Source of the DNA: Phytoactinopolyspora endophytica
Lineage (GTDB): Bacteria > Actinomycetota > Actinomycetes > Jiangellales > Jiangellaceae
DNA: 18,475 nucleotides
Direction: 5' to 3'
Assembly: GCF_004138495.1 (NCBI RefSeq)
Contig: NZ_ML142857.1
Location: 103,543 to 122,017 of the forward strand
Part shown: piece by piece, positions 1,334 to 6,879 of the stretch
Numbering within the stretch: position 1 is the stretch's first letter
Layout: each line of letters begins with the position of its first letter
Translations under genes and position numbers: made by a program
Notes under the pieces: model-generated
Seen by the model: only the letters and a program-made list of their open reading frames with translations
What the model was told of the DNA's origin: nothing
The model's database searches: none

Positions 1334-2341
1334 TCAGCGCGGAAGGGCGTTCAGGTACTCCGCGAATCCCTCCAGACCGTCGATGTTCCGCGGCCCGCTG
1401 ATGCCCTCGTTGAAGTTCATGACGTAGAAGTTGTCCTCCTGCACGGCCGGGAGCTCGCTGGTGATGGGTGATGTCCTCAGGAACTCGATCTTCTCCTCGG
1501 CCGGCTGGTCCCCGTAGTCGAGGATGATGATGACTTCCGGCTCCGCCTCGACGACCGCCTCCCAGCCGACCTGGGTCCAGCGAGCCTCCAGGTCAGCGAA
1601 GATGTTCCGGCCGCCGGCGAACTCGATGATCTGGTTCGGCGGCACCTGGTTGCCCGCCGTGAACGGCTGGTCGGTGCCCGAGTCATACAGGAACACGGGG
1701 ACGGGCTCACCGTCCGGCGCCTGTTCCTGGACGGCCTCGACGCGCTCCCGGAAACCGGCGACGACCTCCTCGGCCCGTTCCTCGACGCCGAAGATCTGCC
1801 CGAGGCGTTCCAGATCGGTGTAGAGCGCTTCGAACGGTTCGATCTCTTCCGGGAAGCCTGGATAGTTGAAGCACGACTCGGCATGCATGAAGCTCTGGAT
1901 GCCGAGTCCGTCGAGGATCTCCGGCGTGATGCCGCGCTGGTCGCTGAAGCCTGAGTTCCAGCCGGCCACGACGAAATCGGCCTCCGCGTCGACCACCAGT
2001 TCCCGGTTGAGCAGGTCGTCGCTGAGGAACTCGACCTGCTCGTACTCCGACGCCCACGGCGATTCGGAGACCGGCGGGTTGGCCGGCGGCATCACGTAGC
2101 CGTGCACGTGGTCGGTCAGACCCAGGACGAACAGCTTGTCCGCGCTTCCGGCCTCGTAGACCACCGCTCGCTCCGGCGTGGTGTACTCGACCGGCTCGCC
2201 GCACCGGTTGACGGTGACGGCCTGGGACTCGTCGCCGGACTCCACGTCCGCTCCACAGGCGGTGAGCACGAATGCGCCGACCGCCAACGGCAGGACAGCC
2301 GTGTGCATCGGAGCGAGACGTTTCGGCGAGCGGAATGTCAT
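1334..2341 (-). CDS. Metal-chelate (Fe/B12/F420-0 type) ABC transporter substrate-binding lipoprotein
   Basis: 335 residues. The N-terminus has a basic start, a hydrophobic stretch and a lipobox LTAC with Cys29 as the lipid anchor, so the mature protein should be tethered outside the membrane. The rest has the shape of a class III (BtuF/FhuD-like) binding protein: CGEPVEYTTPERAVVYEAG at the first strand, ADFVVAGWNSGF in the N lobe, a long linker helix (about LERLGQIFGVEERAEEVVAGF), and a C lobe with PEVIIILDYG. It is the last gene of a three-gene operon. Its ATG overlaps the TGA of the ATPase (ATGA), implying translational coupling. The ligand is not readable from sequence. Related actinobacterial families have been named as iron-siderophore, cobalamin and putative F420-0 transporters. 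The metal-type operator upstream favours a metallophore. Confidence 0.9.
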   Translation of the reverse strand: MTFRSPKRLAPMHTAVLPLAVGAFVLTACGADVESGDESQAVTVNRCGEPVEYTTPERAVVYEAGSADKLFVLGLTDHVHGYVMPPANPPVSESPWASEYEQVEFLSDDLLNRELVVDAEADFVVAGWNSGFSDQRGITPEILDGLGIQSFMHAESCFNYPGFPEEIEPFEALYTDLERLGQIFGVEERAEEVVAGFRERVEAVQEQAPDGEPVPVFLYDSGTDQPFTAGNQVPPNQIIEFAGGRNIFADLEARWTQVGWEAVVEAEPEVIIILDYGDQPAEEKIEFLRTSPITSELPAVQEDNFYVMNFNEGISGPRNIDGLEGFAEYLNALPR

Positions 2342-3132
2342 CGTGTGTGTCCTCTCATCGCGCTGGACGACTCCAGCGAGTACAGGAGCTGCGGAGCGCC
2401 GCTCAACGGGTGCGGCACGACGTTCGCGGCGACACCGAAGACGTCTCGCACCAGTTCTTCGGTCAGCACCTCGCTCGGCGTGCCCTCGGCGACCACCCGT
2501 CCGTCGTCCAGGACGCCCAGGCGGTCACACGCCGCCGCCGCGAGGTTCAGGTCGTGCAGGACCACCAGGACCGTGAGATCGCCGCCCTTGAGCATGGAGA
2601 GCAACTCGATCTGGTGACGCACGTCCAGATGGTTGGTCGGCTCGTCCAGCACCAGGATCTCCGGTTCCTGGACCAGCGCCCGGGCCACCAGCACCCGCTG
2701 ACGCTCGCCTCCGGACAGCGCCAGCACACCGCGGGAGGCCAGGTGAGCGACGTCGAGCCGGTGCATCGCCTCCCGGCAGAGCTCGCTCTCCCGCTCGGTC
2801 AACGGTTCGTTTCCGTGCTTGTGCGGCGCCCGCCCCAGGGCGACCACCTCTTCCACGGTGAAGTCGAGGTCGGTCCCGCCCTCCTGGGTGAGCGCGGACA
2901 GGCGCCGGGCGCCGTCTCGCAGGCTCAGGCCGGTGAGGTCCTCGCCGCCGAACCACACCGTTCCGCGGCTGGGCTTGAGCGCTCGATACACGCACCGCAA
3001 CGCCGTGGACTTTCCGCTGCCGTTCGGCCCGACGAGCCCCACGATCCTGCCGTCCGGGACGTCGAGGGAAAGGTCCTGGATGAGGTCGTGGCCGTCGATG
3101 GTGACTCCGAGGGAGTCGAGCCGCAGATCCAT
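2338..3132 (-). CDS. Metal-chelate ABC transporter ATP-binding protein (FecE/FhuC-like)
   Basis: 264 residues, normal for the family. All nucleotide-binding motifs are present in order: Walker A GPNGSGKST (35-43), Q-loop Gln83, signature LSGGERQ (139-145), Walker B ILVLDEP (159-165) and switch His193 (VVLHDLN). It powers import by the adjacent permease from the cytoplasmic face. Its ATG lies one base after the permease stop, and its own TGA overlaps the start of the binding protein, so the three genes are surely co-translated. The C-terminal extension (PHPLSGAPQLLYSLESSS) resembles the tail of iron-siderophore ATPases. No motif is missing, so the importer should be active. Confidence 0.95.
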   Translation of the reverse strand: MDLRLDSLGVTIDGHDLIQDLSLDVPDGRIVGLVGPNGSGKSTALRCVYRALKPSRGTVWFGGEDLTGLSLRDGARRLSALTQEGGTDLDFTVEEVVALGRAPHKHGNEPLTERESELCREAMHRLDVAHLASRGVLALSGGERQRVLVARALVQEPEILVLDEPTNHLDVRHQIELLSMLKGGDLTVLVVLHDLNLAAAACDRLGVLDDGRVVAEGTPSEVLTEELVRDVFGVAANVVPHPLSGAPQLLYSLESSSAMRGHTR

Positions 3133-3133
3133 C

Positions 3134-4273
3134 TCAGCGGCCCCCGAACAGGTAGCCGCGCCGTCGCATCAGCGTGATAAAGACCGGCACACCCACCAGG
3201 GCCGTGATGACCCCGAGTGGCAGCTCGCGCGGAGCGACCAGCGTCCGCGAGACCAGGTCGACCCAGACCATGAAGATCGCCCCTGCGAGCGGCGCGATCG
3301 TGAACACCCTCGCGTGGCCGGCTCCGACGACGATGCGCACCAGATGCGGCATGACCAGGCCGACGAATCCGATCGCACCGCTGACGGCGACCATGGCACC
3401 GGTCACCAGGGAGGTGAGCACGAACAACCCCCGGCGCATCTTCGCGGCGTCGACGCCCAGACTGGCGGCGGTCTCGTCGCCCATGGCCATGACGTCGAGC
3501 CTGCGGCCGTTCCTGCGCAGCACGACGATGGCCGCCAGCACCGCACCGACCACCACCGGCAGCGATCCCCACGTCGCGGCGCCGAAGCTGCCCATCGTCC
3601 AGAACAGCACCGTGCTGGTGGCTTCGCTCGACGGCGCGAAGTAGACGATCACGCTCATCACGGCCTGGAAGCCGAACGACATCGCGACGCCGGTCAGCAC
3701 CAGTCTCAGCGGCGTGACCCCGGTACGCCCGTACGCCGCCGTGTACACCAGCGCCGATGCGAGCAGTGCACCGAGGAACGCGCCCACGGACACCGCGTAG
3801 ATCCCCATCGCGGTCAGCACGCCGAACACGCTGACCGTCACCGCGCCCACGGACGCGCCCGACGAGACGCCGAGCACGAACGGGTCGGCCAGCGCGTTGC
3901 GCACCATGGCCTGGATGGCCACGCCGACCACGCTCAGCCCGGCACCGACGACCACGGCCAGCAGCACCCGCGGGGTGCGGATCTGCCACACGATCTGGTA
4001 GGTGGTGGCCTCATCGGCGCCGATCCGCCCTCCGGTGACACCCGCCCAGATGTACCGCGCGGTGTCCGCGGGCGAGATGACGGCCGGCCCGAGTCCGACG
4101 GCGAGCAGCACCGAGCCGACGAGGGCGATGCTCAGGACGATGGCAGCGACCGTGATACCCGTCGGCGACCCGAACCGGCGCACCGGAGCCGACGTCTGGC
4201 GCGGCTGCCGATCATCAGGCACGGCCGGCACTGAAGGGTCGGTGGTGTGCGCCGAGACCGGAGACGAGCTCAC
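3134..4273 (-). CDS. FecCD-family ABC transporter permease (metal-chelate importer)
   Basis: 379 residues starting with GTG at 4273, with GGAGG about 11 bases upstream. The first 40 or so residues are polar and Pro-rich. They are followed by about ten hydrophobic segments typical of FecCD/BtuC permeases. Family landmarks include RTPRVLLAVVVGAGLSVVG, NALADPFVLGVSSGAS, the cytoplasmic coupling region ETAASLGVD, GAIGFVGLVMPHLVR and a final APRELPLGVITALVGVPVF. A single permease suggests a homodimer with two ATPases. It is the first gene of the importer operon, directly downstream of the promoter and Zur/Fur-like box at 4342-4371. The operon carries no siderophore biosynthesis gene, so the chelate may come from elsewhere in the genome or from other organisms. 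Confidence 0.93.
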   Translation of the reverse strand: MSSSPVSAHTTDPSVPAVPDDRQPRQTSAPVRRFGSPTGITVAAIVLSIALVGSVLLAVGLGPAVISPADTARYIWAGVTGGRIGADEATTYQIVWQIRTPRVLLAVVVGAGLSVVGVAIQAMVRNALADPFVLGVSSGASVGAVTVSVFGVLTAMGIYAVSVGAFLGALLASALVYTAAYGRTGVTPLRLVLTGVAMSFGFQAVMSVIVYFAPSSEATSTVLFWTMGSFGAATWGSLPVVVGAVLAAIVVLRRNGRRLDVMAMGDETAASLGVDAAKMRRGLFVLTSLVTGAMVAVSGAIGFVGLVMPHLVRIVVGAGHARVFTIAPLAGAIFMVWVDLVSRTLVAPRELPLGVITALVGVPVFITLMRRRGYLFGGR

Positions 4274-4341: not shown

Positions 4342-4371
4342 ACTATAAATAACGATTCTCACTATTATCAA
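4342..4371 (-). promoter_or_regulatory. Importer operon promoter with embedded Zur/Fur-type boxes
   Basis: Read on the minus strand, TTGATA (4371-4366) and TATAGT (4347-4342) are spaced by 18 bases, a good housekeeping-type promoter about 70 bases before the permease GTG. The spacer contains TGAGAATCGTTATTT (4361-4347), a near match to the 7-1-7 palindrome TGATAATGATTATCA bound by Zur/Fur proteins. A second perfect half-site TGATAAT (4370-4364) overlaps the -35. A repressor bound here would block RNA polymerase. Actinobacterial DtxR/IdeR iron boxes look different (TTAGGTTAG-type), so Zur is the better guess. Confidence 0.65.
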
Positions 4372-4395
4372 ATTCGGTTCAGCGCGGTCCGGGAC

Positions 4396-4432
4396 ATGCC
4401 TCGCAGCCTGAACCGGAAGATGCCTCGCAGCC
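4396..4432. repeat. 13-bp direct repeat pair
   Basis: ATGCCTCGCAGCC occurs at 4396-4408 and exactly again at 4420-4432 (period 24). The pair lies between the methyltransferase stop and the importer promoter. I see no gene in this stretch. It may be a small duplication or a pair of binding sites. Confidence 0.6.
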
Positions 4433-4452
4433 CCAGATGACGAGGGGTAGCG

Positions 4453-5208
4453 CTAGCCCGCCGACGCGTCAGCACCGGTCGCCACCATGGCGGCGACAAC
4501 GGCCTGCTCCTCGCGTCGCCAGACGACGCCGGCCTCGTCGAACCCGGCGTCGGCCAGCGATCTCATGTGCCACGAACCCGGCGGATACCAATCAGCGGAG
4601 GTCAGGCCAGAGCCACGCTCACGCAGCACGGACGCAAGCCGCGGATCGGACGCGATCCCCTTCCACCAGTCCTGCCAGGTATGCCGGGGACCAGAGCGCT
4701 CCTCACGCCGGACAGCCAGCCGCGCCGTCATCGTCGCAAGGTTGTCCTCGGCCATGCGATCGGCGTTGCAGAACAATCCACCCGGCGCGATCACCTGCCT
4801 GATCTCGCCGTAGAGCACGCGCAGGCGATCCGGCGGCAGGCAATGCAGCGAGGTAGCGGTGACGACAGCGTCGTACGAGTCGTACGGCAGCGCCGCGACC
4901 CAGTCGCCGGCACCGAGATCCGCCCGGACCACGTTGACCGTCGGCGCGACCGAGGCCGACGCGATCGCGAGCAATACCGGGTCGAGATCGAGAAGCGTGA
5001 CGTCGATGCCGGGGAAACGCCGGGTCAAACGTCGGGAGAGTGATCCGGTGCCACCGGCCAGGTCGAGCACGCGACCATGCTCAGCCCCTACTGCCTCGAC
5101 GGAGTCCAGCAACGCCGTGAACGCGCTCTCGCGATAGGGCAGATACGTCTCTTGCTGCAGGTCCCACGTCCGTTGCAGCTCCTCTGCGACAGCCGGCTCC
5201 AGCATCAC
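4453..5208 (-). CDS. Class I SAM-dependent methyltransferase
   Basis: 251 residues from GTG at 5208; an ATG at 5205 is an equally good start, with GGAG at 5217-5214. Motif I (VLDLAGGTGSL, residues 47-57) is the glycine-rich SAM loop. LLDLDP (72-77) supplies the acidic residue for the ribose. Later motifs are YDAVVTATSLHCLP and a motif III-like APGGLFCNAD. The protein is cytoplasmic and of the UbiE/ubiquinone-type fold. The substrate cannot be told. A Zur/Fur-like box sits right upstream, and it precedes a metal-chelate importer on the same strand, so its work may be tied to metal limitation, for example modifying a metallophore. That link is inference. Confidence 0.88.
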   Translation of the reverse strand: MMLEPAVAEELQRTWDLQQETYLPYRESAFTALLDSVEAVGAEHGRVLDLAGGTGSLSRRLTRRFPGIDVTLLDLDPVLLAIASASVAPTVNVVRADLGAGDWVAALPYDSYDAVVTATSLHCLPPDRLRVLYGEIRQVIAPGGLFCNADRMAEDNLATMTARLAVRREERSGPRHTWQDWWKGIASDPRLASVLRERGSGLTSADWYPPGSWHMRSLADAGFDEAGVVWRREEQAVVAAMVATGADASAG

Positions 5209-5226
5209 GACCGCTCCAATATCTAA

Positions 5227-5241
5227 TCAGAATCATTATCA
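5227..5241 (-). promoter_or_regulatory. Zur/Fur-type operator upstream of methyltransferase
   Basis: The minus strand reads TGATAATGATTCTGA, matching 13 of 15 positions of the palindrome TGATAATGATTATCA. It ends about 19 bases before the GTG start, where a bound repressor would block transcription. It is the strongest of the metal-type boxes in the window and lies in a short AT-rich island inside GC-rich DNA. Confidence 0.7.
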
Positions 5242-5260
5242 CTCTTACTGTAGCCTGCGC

Positions 5261-5375: not shown

Positions 5376-5960
5376 ATGGAGGACGAGTTCAACACCGTGC
5401 TGGAGGAGGTCGGCCCGCGGCTGCGCACTCTCCGGCAGCGCAGCGGCATGACTCTCGCTACGCTGTCCGAGACCACAGGCATCACCGTCAGCACCCTGTC
5501 GCGGCTGGAGTCCGGCCACCGGAGACCGACACTGGAGCTGTTGCTCCCACTGGCCAAGGCCTACGACGTCCCACTGGATGAGCTGGTCAATGCCCCGTCG
5601 ACCGGTGATCCACGGGTGTACATGCGGCCCGTGCATCGAGACCACATGACGGTGATCCCGCTGACGCGCAAGCCCGGTGGGCTGCAGGCGTTCAAGCAGA
5701 TCCTGCACCCCGGAAACAACGACCGCGAGCCCGATCTGCGGTCCCACGAGGGCTACCACTGGCTCTACGTGCTCAATGGGCGGCTCCGCCTCATCCTGGG
5801 CGAGCACGACCTCGTCCTCCCTCCCGGCGAGGTCGCGGAGTTCGACACCCATCTACCCCACTGGTTCGGAAACGCCGACGACCAGCCGGTCGAGTATCTG
5901 AGCATCCTCGGGCCTCAGGGCGAGCGTTTCCACATCCGGGCCCGCCCCCGCGGCAACTGA
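5376..5960 (+). CDS. XRE-family transcriptional regulator with C-terminal cupin domain
   Basis: 194 residues. Residues 12-72 form a classical XRE/HTH_3 DNA-binding domain, with helices visible in GMTLATLSETTGITVSTLSR and ending LDELV. A linker follows, then a cupin beta-barrel (about 100-187) with LRSHEGYHWLYVLNGRL, LPPGEVAEFDTHLPHWFGN and VEYLSILGP. His124, His128, His159 and His162 could hold a metal or line a small-ligand pocket. This domain order is that of the SutR/PuuR-type regulators, in which the cupin senses a metabolite. There is no ribosome site before the ATG, and the promoter spacing suggests leaderless translation. It is convergent with the beta-lactamase-like gene (10 bases apart) and divergent from the methyltransferase, so it may act on itself or on the latter. 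The target is unknown. Confidence 0.92.
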   Translation: MEDEFNTVLEEVGPRLRTLRQRSGMTLATLSETTGITVSTLSRLESGHRRPTLELLLPLAKAYDVPLDELVNAPSTGDPRVYMRPVHRDHMTVIPLTRKPGGLQAFKQILHPGNNDREPDLRSHEGYHWLYVLNGRLRLILGEHDLVLPPGEVAEFDTHLPHWFGNADDQPVEYLSILGPQGERFHIRARPRGN

Positions 5961-5970
5961 CCCGGTGCCC

Positions 5971-6879
5971 TCAGATCCAGGCCGAGCGGAGCTGATCGCG
6001 CAACGCCCGCGCGACGCGGGCCATCGTCGCCTCGGCGCCGGGCTGATTGATCGCGGCGACACGGGACTCCGTCAACGCGGCGACGGCGAACGTCTGCCCG
6101 TCGCTGTGCTCGACGACACCGATCTCATGCCGGAGGTTGAGCAAGGTCCCCGTCTTGGACGACCACCTGGAGACGTCCGAGCTGAAGTCCGGGCCGAGCC
6201 GCTGTCTGATGACATTGTTCGCCATCAGCTCCCGTACCCGGGCGCACGTTTCGGGCGCTATCGACGACGGCGCCCACAACGCTTGCAGCAGATCCACGAA
6301 CGCCCTGGCCGAGCCGGAGCTCGCGTGAGTCACGTCCAGCTGGGGTATCCGGTGGCCATGGCCATCCGTCCCGGCGGCGATGGCGATCGCATGGGCCAGG
6401 TCGGCGTCGTCATCGTCGAATCGATGGGCCGGGGTGTCGGTGAGGTCGCTGAGCGTGTGGCGGACCGTGACGCCACGGATACCCAGCCGGCGCAGTGTGG
6501 ACGTGACCTCCGCCGGCGAGGTCAGCGTGAACAGCGCGTCCGCGGCTGTGTTGTCGCTGACGGACGTGCTGAGGTACAGCAGGTCGTCCACGGCGACGCT
6601 GACCGGGTGGTGGAATTTGCTCACGCCGGTGGGCCCCGTGGCCGCGAGCCTGCCCGGCTGGAGCTCGACGTAGGTCGCACCGTCCAGGTCACCGGACCGG
6701 ATCCGCTCGAGGATGGCGATGGCGAGCGGAATCTTCACGAGCGAGGCAGCCGGGAACACCAGGTCCGGCTCGATGCCGATCTCTTCCCCGGACTGTAGGT
6801 CACGCACCAGGAACGAGCCCCGCAGGCCCGCATCGTCGAGGTCGTGCCGCAGATCCCGGACCAGCCTCTCGGCGGTCAT
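5971..6879 (-). CDS. BlaB-like cytoplasmic class A beta-lactamase homologue (probable accessory regulator)
   Basis: 302 residues. It has the serine beta-lactamase fold motifs S46-L-V-K49, S108-D-N110 and K242-T-G244. There is no signal peptide, so it should stay in the cytoplasm. Where hydrolytic class A enzymes carry ExELN (Glu166 and Asn170), this protein reads TVRHTLSDL, so the deacylating glutamate is not evident. The ATG overlaps the TGA of the LysR gene (ATGA), meaning the two are translated together. In Streptomyces cacaoi an equivalent protein, BlaB, is encoded with the LysR regulator BlaA beside blaL, and both are reported to be needed for induction. I infer a sensing or signalling role rather than resistance by hydrolysis. 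A weak esterase-type activity is the alternative. Confidence 0.88.
   Translation of the reverse strand: MTAERLVRDLRHDLDDAGLRGSFLVRDLQSGEEIGIEPDLVFPAASLVKIPLAIAILERIRSGDLDGATYVELQPGRLAATGPTGVSKFHHPVSVAVDDLLYLSTSVSDNTAADALFTLTSPAEVTSTLRRLGIRGVTVRHTLSDLTDTPAHRFDDDDADLAHAIAIAAGTDGHGHRIPQLDVTHASSGSARAFVDLLQALWAPSSIAPETCARVRELMANNVIRQRLGPDFSSDVSRWSSKTGTLLNLRHEIGVVEHSDGQTFAVAALTESRVAAINQPGAEATMARVARALRDQLRSAWI

Follow-up and report, generated by a model that had tools for sequence, protein, structure and literature searches.

The window analysed here, a stretch of 18,475 nucleotides from Phytoactinopolyspora endophytica, carries on its minus strand a class I SAM-dependent methyltransferase gene (4453..5208) and, 179 bases further on, the three genes of an importer: a FecCD permease (3134..4273; PF01032, 9.5e-87), an ATPase (2338..3132; PF00005) and a substrate-binding lipoprotein (1334..2341). 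The methyltransferase may begin at the GTG at 5208 or at the ATG at 5205; the latter is the likely start, this choice and the transcription starts being guesses. Divergent from the methyltransferase lies an HTH-cupin regulator gene (5376-5960), whose start is about 130 bp from the methyltransferase box described below, and positions 5971-6879 hold a class A beta-lactamase-like gene that scores below the curated NCBIfam cut-off.

Two predicted Zur boxes accompany these genes, both on the minus strand. The methyltransferase box, GAGTGATAATGATTCTGATTA (5224..5244), is the best in the window with 22.0 bits and includes TGATAATGATTCTGA (5227-5241), from which 21 bases lead to the likely ATG. The box of the importer promoter, TAGTGAGAATCGTTATTTATA (4344..4364; 21.6 bits), includes TGAGAATCGTTATTT (4347-4361); it is the weaker of the two, an imperfect palindrome that a strict pattern misses. 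The original prediction had named both boxes, the first just upstream of the methyltransferase, and both are present at the right coordinates, ranking first and second among the 18,455 positions scored. It had also placed the importer box and an extra TGATAAT half-site inside the spacer between the -35 and -10 elements. The box does fill the spacer of a sigma-70-type promoter, TTGATA-18-TATAGT (4342..4371, minus strand; 10/12, a consensus match only), whereas the half-site (4364-4370) overlaps the -35 element. Two such promoter-like sites were found, against 0.2 in shuffles. The half-site is part of an overlapping second Zur-like register, TGATAATAGTGAGAATCGTTA (4350..4370, minus strand), which is third in the window with 17.5 bits.

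Zur-type character and conservation of the boxes

The boxes were scored with a motif obtained from elsewhere. A palindromic motif search in DNA upstream of rpmE2/rpmB2, the genes of zinc-free ribosomal proteins, in relatives (32 of 34 regions used) recovered a Zur-like 21-mer, and the Zur matrix was made up of 15 non-identical rpmE2/rpmB2 upstream sites, two from the window genome and none from the window. None of 300 position-permuted versions of this matrix reached 21.6 bits on the window, the highest value being 19.9. The pattern TGANAATNRTTNTNA, allowing up to two mismatches, has six matches in the window, two of which are one site read on both strands, compared with 0.57 expected; none of 200 shuffles reaches six. 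In the whole 7.6-Mb genome the strict pattern matches three times, at znuA, at the window methyltransferase and at a site beside rpmB2-rpmG2-rpsN2, and its reversed form, used as a control, does not match at all. A whole-genome scan with a sequence-only covariance model of the boxes gave no matches, known sites being missed too.

The conservation of the boxes was studied among 393 genomes of the class, 30 of which have a lipoprotein at least 53% identical to that of the window (group A). Upstream DNA was readable at 29 loci, corresponding to 28 group A genomes (the window and G057 were excluded) and to a divergent homologue at 44-51% in G313. A predicted box above 14 bits lies no more than 260 bp from the start of the permease at 25 of them (14.2-27.8 bits), in G051 with a Cys-free L36 gene between box and permease; among 1250 windows of 260 bp taken from the same 29 loci, 39 score above 14 bits, a count that includes the scored upstream windows. 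The other four importers (L070, L075, L076 and L164) have no direct box and follow, on the same strand, cobW-rpmB2-rpsN2 runs whose first gene is boxed at 24-27 bits; each of these runs would form one transcript with its importer. All 29 loci are thus linked to a box, four of them only via the upstream genes, and the original prediction passes the conservation test that it had proposed for itself. The lipoprotein tree unites 13 of its 15 rows from group A and G313 (88/90), with L174 and L175 pairing beside this main group (81/75); L175 and L190 are long branches, and a paralogue group with a member under a cobalamin riboswitch is separate (100/100). None of the ten other FecCD importers fetched (three from the paralogue group and seven from a group B) is boxed, the best score being 4.8 bits. 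That the boxes are chance AT-rich matches in GC-rich DNA, an idea suggested by the short, AT-rich motif and the imperfect importer palindrome, has a practically negligible probability given their presence at 29/29 importer loci and the yield of 3 Mb of first-order Markov sequence, in which one site exceeds 18 bits, three exceed 16 and seven exceed 14.

The same motif is found at znuA, at cobW and at the genes of zinc-free ribosomal proteins, and this distribution, together with the opposition between the 29 box-linked importers and the ten unboxed ones, disfavors iron control and argues for zinc and Zur, as the original prediction had preferred. The window genome codes for four Fur-family proteins, so another regulator of this family, or Fur itself responding to iron, could be imagined to use the boxes. 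We consider this very improbable, as the genes just named share the motif, and the Fur paralogue encoded on contig C14 goes with a different palindrome, TGCGACnnnGTCGCA. A Zur homologue is present: the Fur-family protein at C5:349349 has as best matches 3mwm and 7vo0 ("putative metal uptake regulation protein"), both of which we take to be the S. coelicolor Zur, and 2o03 ("probable zinc uptake regulation protein FurB"). Its gene is divergent from znuA (PF01297), which has the box TGACAATGGTTGTCA. The boxes of znuA and of a DUF6506 gene in this genome are independent of the matrix; rpmE2 and rpmB2/cobW are also boxed, two of these sites having been used in the matrix. By their sequence, the predicted boxes at the importer and the methyltransferase are of the Zur type.

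The Zur motif of S. coelicolor is given as tGaNNatSatNNtCa (PMC5472717), and the actinobacterial Zur regulon resembles the set found here both in its 7-1-7 box and in its members, which include znuA, zinc-free ribosomal proteins, cobW/yciC and a zincophore cluster (PMC5472717, PMC6103462). The sections of these two papers used here name the coelibactin genes, znuABC and others for S. coelicolor, and neither an importer of this family nor such a methyltransferase.

The importer ligand and a candidate zincophore cassette

The importer belongs to the FecCD type: PF01032, PF00005 and PF01497 all score above cut-off and the binding-protein fold matches. The best-scoring NCBIfam models for the three subunits are those of the F420-0 transporter (TIGR03868, TIGR03869 for the permease and TIGR03873 for the ATPase), all of them below their curated cut-offs (174/392, 277/437 and 275/372 bits). 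By the NCBI cut-offs, this is not an F420-0 ABC transporter, and the doubt that the original prediction had cast on F420-0 or iron labels is borne out by these scores and by the Zur-type boxes. Membership of the BtuCDF vitamin B12 importer is not supported by the models either, BtuC (213/334 bits) and BtuF (56/234 bits) both falling below cut-off.

The neighborhoods of the orthologues are more informative. Some adjoin zinc-free ribosomal genes, and others a mostly Zur-boxed biosynthetic cassette made up of a PrmC-like methyltransferase (FNPP motif, PF05175), a DUF364 protein, a GHMP kinase, an SbnA-like PLP enzyme and a divergent MFS pump. DUF364 is a family of putative heavy-metal chelation, and the PLP enzyme scores below the SbnA cut-off. 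The cassette lies beside the importer, whole or in part, at L156, L157, L164, L165, L169, L170, L171 and L174, and in part at L167 and L175; within the stretches fetched, L159, L160, L162 and L172 have the MFS pump only, and two genomes of the Jiangellaceae, G012 and G019, have kept the pump beside the importer. The gene of the PrmC-like methyltransferase was used as a marker of the cassette and searched in the 393 genomes (E 1e-30). It is present in 16 of them, including 14 of the 30 importer genomes (hypergeometric 8e-16, not corrected for kinship), and in nine of these 14 no more than 8 kb separates it from the lipoprotein gene. A box of at least 15 bits is found within 450 bp of 13 of the 16 marker genes; the exceptions are in G367, where the unboxed gene follows a boxed importer, G182 and G284. 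Only two genomes, G182 and G290, have the marker and no importer. The cassette is a candidate zincophore pathway, and the neighborhoods as a whole point to a zincophore-like ligand, as originally proposed.

The marker was not found at E 1e-30 in the window genome or in any other genome of the Jiangellaceae searched, which suggests that the window organism uses the chelator rather than making it; for the window importer itself, the link to a zincophore is suggested by orthology, the marker being missing from its genome. The opine dehydrogenase family PF10100 had no match in the window genome and 59 others, the control genomes being silent too. No description of the importer family or of the cassette was recognized among the top-ranked results of searches in the open-licence literature.

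Related arrangements have been described. Among the actinomycete opine-like zincophore clusters, those with FecCD importers only are presented as having an extra predicted methyltransferase, of PF13649 in eight cluster-1 BGCs, and MFS exporters as usual (PMC7438024). A PF13649 methyltransferase is common to these clusters and the window, and they may differ in the opine dehydrogenase, keeping in mind the silent controls of that search. The zinc island of M. avium ssp. paratuberculosis is reported to contain Zur boxes, a transporter, an MFS gene (sidG), metallophore genes and a type 12 methyltransferase, MAP3738c, which is induced by zinc starvation (PMC4298942). It resembles the window locus in its boxes, transporter and methyltransferase, and differs from it in its NRPS-type genes. 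The source presents MptABC as ABC ATPase/permease proteins, which we take to be another transporter type, and in the part of it used here MAP3738c is not marked with a box of its own, unlike the window methyltransferase.

The neighborhoods have to be weighed against another possible cargo. The paralogue group is 39-57% identical to the importer, and a 51%-identical permease of G051 belonging to it stands under a cobalamin riboswitch (L190:6070-6284; RF00174, 99.7 bits), so that members of the family could have a corrinoid or cobalt compound as ligand. The Zur-controlled importer would then carry a corrinoid or cobalt complex, imported by zinc-starved cells to run zinc-sparing enzymes. The BtuC and BtuF models, themselves below cut-off, are among the next best after those of F420-0, and BtuF is among the fold neighbors of the binding protein. 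Yet neither the window nor eight orthologous loci searched have a riboswitch at the gathering threshold, scans of five cassette proteins gave no match to a corrinoid family, and the paralogues with the riboswitch-linked member form their own branch in the lipoprotein tree. A corrinoid or cobalt cargo thus appears distinctly unlikely next to the zincophore-like ligand. A cobalamin riboswitch was also considered for the L079 leader and was not borne out at the gathering threshold, L190 being the only one of three loci to have one. G051 holds both a Zur-boxed importer and the riboswitch-linked paralogous importer.

The methyltransferase and its association with the importer

The best Pfam match of the window methyltransferase is PF13649, and its best sequence and fold matches among those listed are CysG and BelI (PDB 9fd3 and 9fce), with 24-26% identity. 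These enzymes carry out carboxyl methylation in the cystargolide and belactosin pathways. The overall fold is common to all three proteins, while the second His of the CysG/BelI motif SIHHL is a Cys in the window protein (SLHCL) and the window family mostly has LHWL; this places the window enzyme outside the CysG/BelI family on the assumption that the consecutive His pair, mutated in deposited CysG entries, defines that family.

Window-type methyltransferases are boxed in all three genomes of the genus with a match at E 1e-40 (G000, the window genome, G001 and G003), and they lie beside the importer in the window genome only, the boxed homologues of the other two being elsewhere. No homologue adjoins the importer at the 29 other loci, where the only match, a partial one (36%) in L156, lies about 4.5 kb from it; G004 has an importer and no window-type methyltransferase. 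The fixed unit of four genes that the original prediction implied is not supported by this distribution. Of 30 further homologues, none has a box of at least 15 bits, and the boxed homologues do not make up one clade. An upstream palindrome of 14.7 bits at the G202 methyltransferase was not counted as a Zur box.

Other methyltransferases do occur beside the orthologous importers. Unrelated PF13649-type class I enzymes, of two further types, adjoin them at Zur-boxed positions in at least four loci, a lower bound since the motif search over the 29 loci was too narrow and there could be more. In L069 (2931-3806) and L073 (3050-3925) the gene is divergent from the importer and the gap is boxed; in L075 (3411-4124) and L076 (7882-8583) it lies between rpsN2 and the permease, a position occupied in L070 (7958-8530) by a shortened remnant of a methyltransferase gene. 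In addition, cousins of the window methyltransferase are found inside two Zur-boxed SBP-MT-permease-ATPase operons of another importer, one of which adjoins rpmE2/rpsN2/rpmB2/cobW. Given how frequent methyltransferases are in these genomes, a certain number of such neighbors would arise by chance alone. From gene order, the pairing of importer and methyltransferase is a recurrent one with different enzymes, which lends support to the idea of methylation as a partner of uptake and not to this particular gene set; the methylation may act on the ligand of the importer.

A different role would dissociate the enzyme from that ligand. Dithiol toxins such as gliotoxin and holomycin strip zinc and cause zinc starvation, and the methyltransferase could be a defence enzyme that methylates them. 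In G001 and G003 it is boxed although it lies away from the importer; the fungal GtmA is described as inactivating the dithiol gliotoxin through bis-thiomethylation (PMC10533825) and a dithiol oxidase induced by zinc starvation as protecting P. aeruginosa (PMC11317636). Against this, CysG and BelI are the closest in fold among the matches listed, with no thiol methyltransferase prominent there; in addition, unrelated methyltransferases adjoin the importer orthologues, and cousins lie within importer operons. A defence against toxins seems to us unlikely.

Proposed zinc response and further observations

In the proposed mechanism, zinc-loaded Zur would sit on both boxes and block the importer and methyltransferase promoters, and both would be switched on when zinc runs out. 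The lipoprotein, FecCD permease and ATPase would then import zinc as a complex with a zincophore, a small organic chelator, which in a number of actinomycetes may be made and exported by the mostly Zur-boxed cassette that often adjoins the importer. The window organism would rely on a chelator from other producers or on one made by a different route. In its zinc-starved cells the most likely substrate of the methyltransferase would be a small molecule with a carboxylate, amine or thiol group, which may be the imported chelator itself. We regard this explanation, taken as a whole, as fairly probable. A broader scenario is more tentative, and we would give it somewhat less than an even chance: the importer family could serve for uptake in an actinobacterial zincophore system that has not been described before, in which the SbnA-like enzyme, the GHMP kinase, the DUF364 protein and the PrmC-like methyltransferase build the chelator and the MFS pump exports it. 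The Jiangellaceae, with the importer only (two of them with the pump), would live on the chelators of their neighbors, and several would have independently recruited different zinc-controlled methyltransferases to process the foreign chelator. If so, the importer family would move from iron or F420 to zinc, a candidate zincophore pathway would be named, and users of a zinc chelator that are not its producers would have been found.

Several other genes of the window genome carry or neighbor boxes. The DUF6506 gene (L090:6760-7225, contig C2) has its own Zur box of 17.2 bits near the boxed rpmE2. A second Zur-like protein is encoded at C1:771766 with two Zur boxes nearby (L092), and on this contig (L003/L092) its gene is followed by that of an AztD-like protein, as judged by eye. 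A small zinc-ribbon protein (PF09723) with a Gly/Cys tail (L007:1183-1518, contig C16) is encoded behind a 20.3-bit Zur box beside rpmB2-rpmG2-rpsN2, and a similar PF09723 gene lies near the importer in G014 (L069:8406-8612). On contig C14, a Fur-family gene has as its neighbor a second FecCD importer, also accompanied by methyltransferases (L093:2536-6941). The palindrome found before the permease of this second importer, which is not a Zur box, is present at 8/8 loci: L093 (one base off), L080, L081, L082, L097, L098, L099 and L100.
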